From positions 1 through 64,000 of the forward strand of contig JALWLE010000060.1 in NCBI GenBank assembly GCA_026996605.1: a stretch of DNA of 64,000 nt, in the 5' to 3' direction. The translations under genes were made by a program, and so were the position numbers. Below the pieces are notes generated by a model. That model was given only the letters and a program-made list of their open reading frames with translations, was not told the DNA's origin and searched no databases. The first letter of the stretch is position 1. Every line of letters begins with the position of its first letter. Source of the stretch: Flavobacteriales bacterium (GTDB lineage Bacteria; Bacteroidota; Bacteroidia; Flavobacteriales; Flavobacteriaceae). This document shows positions 48,615-53,155 of this stretch, one piece after another.

Positions 48615-50024
48615 TTATTTGATGATTAATTTCTTTACAAAGCTGTCTTTATGGTTAGAAATTTTCACCAAATACATACCTGTAGGCAAATTGGAAACAT
48701 TTATATGAATATTACCTTCACCGTTTTGATTCAAAATACTTTTTCCGGTTAAATCGGTTATTTGAACCTTGTAATCAAATTGTTCTTGGTTGTCAATATT
48801 TAACACATCATGAGCCGGATTGGGGTAAATAGTGAAATTTTTAGCAAGTTCTTCTTTTATAGAATTCGGATGTTCGTTATGATATAATTTTCCAACACCA
48901 AAAAAATTGGCATCTGTACCGGTTAAAAATAAGTCAATTTTTCCATCGTTGTCGTAGTCAGCAGCATCAGCATCACCATACTGAACGGCAGCAAAACTTT
49001 CATTTGTGTTTTCAACAAAAATTCCCGATCCATTATTTTCATATAATTTAGCGATCAAATCTTCATTACTACCGGAAACATTAACTCCTGTAATAAAGAC
49101 ATCTAATGAACCATTAATATCAAAGTCAACTAATTCGATATTTGCTACACGATGTGCTGCCGTTATATTGAAATGAGGATCGTCAGTAAATGTATTATTG
49201 TTATTAAGCATTAGGTGAGCTTCACTATCCTGATTTGAGGTTCCTGTAATAACAAAATCCAAGTCGCCATCACCATCAACATCGCCCCACTCAAAATCAC
49301 CGAGCCACAATTGCGGAAAGCCAAGATTTAATTCGGTAAAATTTTGTGAACCGTCATTTTGCCATACTTTGGTGTATGGATTATTTGTTGTATCGTTCCA
49401 ACCGGCTAAAGTAATATCCATATCATTATCATTGTCAAAATCAATAAACTTTATTTTGCCATAATTCATTGGTGGTAGATTCAAACTGGATTCAGTATAA
49501 TTACCATTGCCGTCATTTACATAAACTTTGGAAAAGAAAGTCCAATTGGTTGTTTCCACACCGGTCAAGGCTATATCCAAATCACCATCATTATCATAAT
49601 CACCAAAAACCACATCACCCATATAAGAATCGAGTAAACCGGTGTTAGAAGCAGAAAAAGTACCGTTCCCGTTATTGATATAAACATCTGTTACCCCTAC
49701 ACTGTTGTCATAGCCCATTATAACCAAATCCATATCACCATCACCATCAACATCACCCCAGTCTGCAGCTCCTGTGTTTAGTATTGGCAAGCCCGAATTG
49801 GTAACTAATGAAAAAGTCCCGTTAAAATTAAGATATAAACCACCACCGTTACTGTTAGCATTGAGTTGCCCGGTATAGTAGAGGTCCAAATCGCCATCAC
49901 CGTCATAATCACCAAAAGCACTAAACCCGAAAGTCAGTTGTGGTAAACTACCGGTAACATCGACAAAATTTTGACCAAAAGCCCAAAATCCGGTCAATAA
50001 AAATAAAAATGTCATTTTTTTCAT
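48615..50024 (-). CDS. Secreted FG-GAP/VCBS repeat protein with type IX sorting domain
   Basis: A 469-residue secreted protein. A signal peptide (MKKMTFLFLLTGFWAFGQ) is followed by about seven FG-GAP/VCBS repeats, each with a calcium-binding DYDGDGDLD-type loop (e.g. FGDYDGDGDLDLYYTG, WGDVDGDGDMDLVIMG). The last 75 residues are a type A T9SS C-terminal sorting domain: NFTIYPNPAHDVLNID, then LTGKSIL and LPTGMYLVKIS ending VKKLIIK. It should be exported by SPI and the type IX system and attached or released at the surface. A -7 element lies at 50070-50077. Confidence 0.9.
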   Translation of the reverse strand: MKKMTFLFLLTGFWAFGQNFVDVTGSLPQLTFGFSAFGDYDGDGDLDLYYTGQLNANSNGGGLYLNFNGTFSLVTNSGLPILNTGAADWGDVDGDGDMDLVIMGYDNSVGVTDVYINNGNGTFSASNTGLLDSYMGDVVFGDYDNDGDLDIALTGVETTNWTFFSKVYVNDGNGNYTESSLNLPPMNYGKIKFIDFDNDNDMDITLAGWNDTTNNPYTKVWQNDGSQNFTELNLGFPQLWLGDFEWGDVDGDGDLDFVITGTSNQDSEAHLMLNNNNTFTDDPHFNITAAHRVANIELVDFDINGSLDVFITGVNVSGSNEDLIAKLYENNGSGIFVENTNESFAAVQYGDADAADYDNDGKIDLFLTGTDANFFGVGKLYHNEHPNSIKEELAKNFTIYPNPAHDVLNIDNQEQFDYKVQITDLTGKSILNQNGEGNIHINVSNLPTGMYLVKISNHKDSFVKKLIIK

Positions 50025-50237: not shown

Positions 50238-50837
50238 TTAATAATTTTCACGCTTCATCACATTACTAACATTGTGCACATTTACAACCGGATTACTTGC
50301 AAGATGCACATTGACTAAACCTTTACCATTTATATAATTTTGTGCACTCGAATACGTATAATGAGATGCCTTTTCTACAATTCCTGCCCGTACGGGATTT
50401 AAATGTATATAATCCAATTTAGACCAAAGAAACCGTTCTGAATATACTTCTTCCGGATGATTGTTTAACTGCCAAAATTGAAACTTTTTATTGCGTTGAT
50501 GGGTTTCGGTAGCTTTTTTAAAACGTTCTAACATCCACTCTTTACGACTTTCGTTTTCTGCTTGAATTTGGTCTAAAACTGTTTTTGCCGTAAACTTCTT
50601 AAAATCTCTAATCAATTCCGACAACTTTTCATCTTCTGATTGTATAATCATGTGTATATGATTTGACATAATCACATAGCCATACAAAATCATTCCTTTG
50701 TTCTTAATGCAATAGTTAAAACTATTTACCACAATATCACGATATATTTTCCGGCTAAAAACATCTATCCAATCAACCACCGTCATGGTAATGAAATGCG
50801 CCTTAGCTTGGTCTCTTATGATATATCCTTCTTTCAC
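50238..50837 (-). CDS. REP-associated tyrosine transposase (RAYT, IS200/IS605-like)
   Basis: A 199-residue Y1-type HUH endonuclease. The HUH motif is in YVIMSNHIHMIIQ (His60 and His62), and the catalytic Tyr is probably Tyr142 in KLDYIHLNPVRAGIV. The block SRKEWMLERFKKA and KKFQFWQLNNHPEEVYS are typical of RAYTs. RAYTs recognise and mobilise REP hairpins rather than themselves in most genomes. A -7 element (50858-50865) lies 20 bases upstream, so it is probably expressed. The C-terminal 30 residues (two VNVH units) are an extension I do not recognise. Confidence 0.88.
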   Translation of the reverse strand: MKEGYIIRDQAKAHFITMTVVDWIDVFSRKIYRDIVVNSFNYCIKNKGMILYGYVIMSNHIHMIIQSEDEKLSELIRDFKKFTAKTVLDQIQAENESRKEWMLERFKKATETHQRNKKFQFWQLNNHPEEVYSERFLWSKLDYIHLNPVRAGIVEKASHYTYSSAQNYINGKGLVNVHLASNPVVNVHNVSNVMKRENY

Positions 50838-52581: not shown

Positions 52582-53155
52582 CTTCTTCTTTGCTGCTCTT
52601 TCAAACATCCACAGCATCTATTCCTTTCTGCTTCTTGCTCATTTTCTTTGATGGTTTGTATCATTTTTTAGATGTTAACGTTTTGTAATCTCGTAATAAT
52701 CCTGTAGGATCTTCATTAGTAGAACGAAATATAAAATGAACATGACTAGGCATAAAGCAATATGCAAACAATTCCATTCCTTTATGTTTTCTACAATAAA
52801 CGACACTTTCAGTTAATATATTGTAATAAACCTGTCTTGTAAATAGAACTTCCTCAAAAGCTCAGAAGTGCATTGATTTTGTAATTTTTGAAGTGTAGAT
52901 GTATATAAATACTTCAAACTGAAAAAGTTGCAAAAGCAGTGTGCTTCTGAGCAACAAAAAGCTTCTCATTACGATGTCATAAATGCAAGGAAATATGGAA
53001 TTTTATTAAATAAAGTCGCATTTAAGAACACCATTTTTAATATTCATCACTTTGAGTGTTTTTGAGGAAGCCCTAAATACATCAATCCGATTTACTGTAG
53101 CAAAAGAAACAAAGTAAGCCGCAGAAGGATTATGAAACTTATAATTTCTACTCAT
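52582..53155 (-). pseudogene. RAYT pseudogene
   Basis: Removing 52846-53073 and one copy of the 6-bp duplication gives an in-frame start MSRNYKFHNPSAAYFVSFA, then IDVFTRQVYYN, and the HUH block AYCFMPSHVHFIF. It then breaks: six A at 52661-52666 where seven are needed (giving stop TGA), a missing base in the ENEQESRKE region, and TAG for the Trp of KEWMLWMFERAAKKK. The gene stops at AAKKK at the REP-like end, without the catalytic Tyr region. It is therefore dead in four ways. Confidence 0.75.
52846..53073. mobile_element. 228-bp MITE-like insertion
   Basis: Terminal inverted repeats: GAACTTCCTCAAAAGC at the left and, read inward on the other strand, GGGCTTCCTCAAAAAC at the right, with further matching to AAGTG. 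It is flanked by the direct repeat TAAATA at 52840-52845 and 53074-53079. It holds no gene. It splits the RAYT pseudogene between IDVF and TRQVYY. Confidence 0.75.

Follow-up and report, generated by a model that had tools for sequence, protein, structure and literature searches.

The window analysed here is a stretch of 64,000 nucleotides from a flavobacterial draft genome of 2.38 Mb that is 97% complete. It contains, on the minus strand, the remnant of a RAYT gene, which codes for a protein with a Y1_Tnp domain. The remnant is split in two. Its N-terminal part is located at 53074-53155 and the rest at 52661-52845, where the reading stops after the residues TSKK. A second RAYT gene, coding for 199 amino acids and also carrying Y1_Tnp, lies about 1.8 kb away on the same strand (50238-50837). 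Compared with this protein, the remnant of 86 amino acids has lost the C-terminal half. Also on the minus strand is the gene for a 469 amino acid protein (48615-50024) with repeated GDYDGDGDLD-type motifs, which are FG-GAP/VCBS-like. Its C-terminal end resembles, by eye, a type IX secretion sorting signal.

The two parts of the remnant are separated by a segment of 228 bp (52846-53073) with the sequence TAAATA on either side, at 52840-52845 and at 53074-53079. The left terminal repeat, GAACTTCCTCAAAA (52846-52859, plus strand), and the right terminal repeat, which reads GGGCTTCCTCAAAA on the minus strand (53060-53073), match at 12 of 14 positions. Two of the first three bases differ between them, the left tip being mutated from GGGC. 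No open reading frame of 80 or more amino acids lies inside the segment. The inverted ends, the bordering TAAATA and the lack of room for a gene are all as the original prediction had described them. A different placement of the borders, which would count the flanking TA as part of the element and shrink the duplication to 2-3 bp, is disfavoured. At one related copy, L080, the duplication is TACAGTC; the element therefore starts after the C, not after TA.

If the segment and one TAAATA are excised, a continuous RAYT reading of 86 amino acids results on the minus strand. This reading passes the Pfam cut-off of Y1_Tnp (PF01797), and 85 of its amino acids form a gap-free alignment with the second RAYT, at 39% identity. 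It had been claimed that deletion restores the frame, and the continuous reading is indeed obtained. The frame is no proof of an insertion, however, since the segment plus its duplication measures 234 bp, or 78 codons, and its presence leaves the frame unchanged. The real evidence is that the insert introduces in-frame stops and that homology is gapless across the empty site. RAYT homologues that natively contain the segment would be at odds with an insertion, and no such segment is present in the window's second RAYT.

Related copies exist both in the host genome and elsewhere. The host carries three relatives of about 270 bp, all intergenic, with about 80% identity in the half of the element that forms a hairpin. 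In the sister species G202, the copies L070 and L074 have the same ends as the window element and align with it over the full length at 88.6% and 89.0% identity. Each has its own 6-bp target duplication, and their flanks differ from those of the window copy. Both read GGGCTTCCTCAAAA with the tip GGGC kept, and in L070 the two ends match at 14 of 14 positions. The search for other copies that had been proposed as a check thus gave a positive answer. Together with the borders and the continuity of the empty site, the sister copies bear out a 228-bp MITE with a 6-bp duplication inside a RAYT gene.

The wider family was traced with a covariance model of the hairpin. Among 199 relatives searched, it identifies 38 places, which are confined to four of the genus's 13 genomes (the host, G202, G207 and G210), and the hairpin was not found outside such elements. 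At least 17 distinct copies are flanked by perfect direct repeats, which are 6 or 7 bp long and nearly all have the form TAN2-3TA, similar to the TAAATA of the window. The family falls into three subfamilies by end sequence: GGGCTTCCTCAAAA in the window and G202, GGGTCTGCTGAAAA in the host genome, G207 and one copy of G202, and GGGCTTGCTGAAAA in G210. The five copies of G210 that are 97.5-99.6% identical among themselves point to recent activity in that genome. A pattern search of named genomes added L132, a single copy from a MAG labelled Bacteroidales; the remaining carriers were uncultured Flavobacteriales MAGs.

Several searches returned nothing. A first family-wide search included few genomes of this genus and so gave nothing convincing beyond the host genome; the search of relatives then gave the copies described above. 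Plasmid and phage collections searched by DNA with the element contained no match, and viral contigs searched with a 26-base family pattern contained none. No published description of the MITE family was found in the open-access literature, with ISfinder not covered, and a literature search with the end sequences returned unrelated papers only. The family is likely, if not provably, undescribed.

Some copies show further variation. L069 (G207:C112, locus positions 1499-1742), a MITE of the same family with the 7-bp duplication TAACATA (locus strand), interrupts a gene that looks like a Fic-domain gene. L076 and L079 of G207 have a longer left end, with about 26 bp of extra sequence after the inverted repeat. 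This sequence partly replaces the outer arm of the hairpin, giving a further structural variant. Finally, a 24-bp REP-like palindrome with a consensus of about ACTTCGACARGCTCAGCACATCGC is found inside the hairpin of L002, L003 and L004 from the host and of L062, L073, L076 and L079 from G207. It is absent from the window element and from the copies of G202 and G210. On its own, a comparable motif occurs beside tRNA genes in G049 (L067) and in G206 (L066). The palindrome may be a REP that was inserted into the MITE.

The element consists of two unlike halves. The left half is a long hairpin (52860-52954, plus strand) with the outer arms GCTCAGAAG and CTTCTGAGC, and it is conserved in all subfamilies. 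Its pairing is preserved by compensatory changes: 97% of the alignment cells are paired, both partners have changed in ten of the pairs, and the covariation score exceeds that of all 500 shuffles and of all slid controls. The predicted RNA fold of the window copy is -45.3 kcal/mol on the plus strand compared with -22.5 kcal/mol on the minus strand, and in nearly every copy the plus strand is likewise far more stable. The plus strand owes this advantage to a main stem with G-U pairs in every subfamily and few A-C. Over the lineage consensuses these amount to about 11 distinct columns with G-U against 4 with A-C, a count that is suggestive only. Among copies that are related to one another, this pattern suggests selection on one strand of the hairpin. 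The hairpin may act on read-through transcripts. A more specific proposal is an RNA hairpin selected on one strand and carried along while the ends shifted between GCTG and CCTC, so that it could use transposases of two different IS5 clades; we regard this as doubtful. An Rfam search with the hairpin returned only sub-threshold matches to microRNA precursors, none above the gathering threshold. These matches were dismissed as what any long stem would produce. Prokaryotic MITEs in general form stable stem-loops (PMC10969869).

The parent insertion sequence had not been recognised in the original prediction. A full-length IS sharing the ends was proposed as a check, and such an IS exists within the genus. 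In G209, an end-pattern search identified a pair of ends that face each other across 1.47 kb. They delimit an intact IS of 1,469 bp (G209:C175, L107:616-2084) with the ends GGGCTTCCTCAAA, the 6-bp duplication TAATTA and an open, intact transposase of 450 amino acids. The transposase matches the NCBIfam model NF033578, transpos_IS5_1, with 354 bits (cut-off 275), and the Pfam families DDE_Tnp_1_2 and DUF772. This places the missing partner in the transpos_IS5_1 group of the IS5 family, and parentage is supported. A relative of 1,683 bp with the ends GGGTCTGCTGA is found in G205. Further relatives occur in other Bacteroidota and in Cyanobacteria, including plasmids of Microcystis (annotated ISMae6), Persicobacter and Gloeothece; they have GGGYYTSCTS ends and mostly duplications of 6-7 bp. 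Two ISs, L120 and L143, have no 6-bp direct repeat. In the transposase tree, ISs with CCTC ends are separated from those with GCTG ends by one branch (support 98/95), and by its ends the window element belongs with the CCTC side.

The distribution of IS and MITE counts against this parentage. The sole IS with these exact ends is in G209, a genome that is 68% complete and has no detected MITE copy. Conversely, neither an IS of the NF033578 group nor a match to the G209 transposase was found in the host draft, and the draft assemblies of the MITE-bearing G202 and G210 likewise yielded no IS of the group. In G207 a transposase of the group is present as broken fragments only. Draft assemblies easily lose multi-copy ISs. 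We infer that the G209 IS or a close relative of it supplied the transposase.

The right half of the element (52955-53059, minus strand) resembles the left end of such an IS, that is, its leader or promoter region, and is colinear with it from the inverted repeat onward. The MITE-family profile matches IS left ends in reverse, and in four ISs the match reaches the boundary exactly. When the ends are left out, the right-half profile still outscores every one of 200 shuffles in 5 of 11 IS leaders. The match lies at a nearly equal distance from the end; in L107, profile positions 12-101 fall on leader positions 13-100. What they share is a palindrome, TGCAAGG..CCTTGCA, after which both L107 and the window element have CCTTGCATTTATG. 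In the window these 13 bases lie at 52978-52990 on the minus strand, and in the G209 IS they contain the start codon of the transposase. The likeness is weak in score, short and AT-rich. The palindrome matches in the opposite orientation too, so the orientation rests on the colinear spacing. On these statistics we infer that the right half of the MITE descends from an IS left end. In the leaders of L107, L143-L149 and L120 a palindrome of this kind stands just before the transposase start, where it could serve as an operator or as a leader hairpin.

The origin of the hairpin half was also sought in the IS. Placement of the hairpin in the leader, ahead of the transposase promoter, was rejected, the left end of the IS matching the right half of the MITE instead. 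Derivation from the 3' end is unsupported, since only 8-33 bp remain past the stop codon and contain no such stem. None of the ISs examined has a counterpart of the hairpin half.

With a probability of roughly 94%, the 228-bp segment is a MITE, descended as a non-autonomous element from an insertion sequence of the IS5 family. The inverted ends and the direct repeat might instead have come together by chance in AT-rich DNA. Dinucleotide shuffling of the window yields an equally good pair of ends with a 6-bp repeat in 15 of 200 cases, and the structure by itself is evidence of moderate strength only. The reality of the element is settled by homologous copies elsewhere, full-length and with the same ends in different flanks, and the RAYT homology is gapless across the empty site; coincidence can be set aside almost entirely. 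Another possibility is a palindrome of the REP/BIME type, mobilised by its own or the second RAYT through single-stranded DNA and Y1 chemistry and not by a DDE transposase. Location inside a RAYT gene would suit such an origin, as would the long hairpin with an RNA fold far more stable on one strand. REP/BIME units, however, are short palindromes that move as single-stranded DNA and leave no target-site duplication, a description that does not fit the element. Its inverted ends are identical to those of a DDE IS, and perfect duplications of 6-7 bp accompany at least 17 copies. Copies are spread throughout several genomes, and the hairpin is confined to such elements. Y1 transposition is not known to make duplications. 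This explanation is very improbable.

A less remote alternative concerns the interior alone. In a type II MITE, foreign hairpin DNA would have been captured between IS5-type ends, and the interior would be unrelated to the IS. The hairpin half, without counterpart in any examined IS, is what such a capture would leave, and the right-half likeness to the IS leader is short. Capture of the whole interior is nevertheless unlikely, given that the right-half profile beats every shuffle for several IS leaders with equal spacing from the end, and that CCTTGCATTTATG is shared at the start codon of L107.

On the preferred reading, a MITE derived from an IS5-type element, an IS5-type transposase recognising GGGCTTCCTCAAAA ends would act on the MITE in trans. 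The MITE would insert at an AT-rich TAN2-3TA site within the RAYT gene, duplicating the 6 bp TAAATA. The window copy has since lost the left GGG tip and, compared with its sisters, shows a gap of about 14 bp. Because of these losses, and because the host draft has no transposase of the group, it is probably now an immobile relic.

This kind of element is ordinary and well known, and the insertion, as matters stand, is ordinary too. What is added is a MITE family whose IS5-type partner is identified, in a little-studied flavobacterial genus represented here by draft genomes only. The three MITE end types on one core form a natural series for the co-change of ends and transposase, to which the two IS end types, split by a single branch of the transposase tree, also belong. 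If the strand-biased hairpin is truly a selected RNA, it would show what an element without genes gains from its interior.

The closest known systems are the transpos_IS5_1 (NF033578) insertion sequences, such as ISMae6 on a Microcystis plasmid. They have in common with the window element the ends GGGYYTSCTSAAA and the leader palindrome TGCAAGG..CCTTGCA. The AT-rich 6-bp duplication is TAATTA in both ISMae6-type and G209 ISs, and that of the window element is likewise AT-rich and 6 bp long. These ISs measure about 1.5-1.7 kb and encode a transposase, whereas the window element has 228 bp and no transposase gene. Within the Bacteroidota, BrickBuilt, MITE293 and MITE700 of Porphyromonas gingivalis have ends that match full-length IS5-family elements (PMC4596501). 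Their end sequences differ from the present ones (e.g. CCGAAAGGTCTC), and BrickBuilt, unlike the window element, has 23-nt tandem repeats and a duplication of variable length. Another example is QMITE2 of Coxiella, with direct repeats of 7-9 bp (PMC10969869). Such prokaryotic hairpin MITEs are AT-rich, mostly intergenic and predicted to form stable stem-loops in transcripts, like the present family. They differ in sequence and in parent IS, and in the present family the long hairpin lies off-centre, beside one end.
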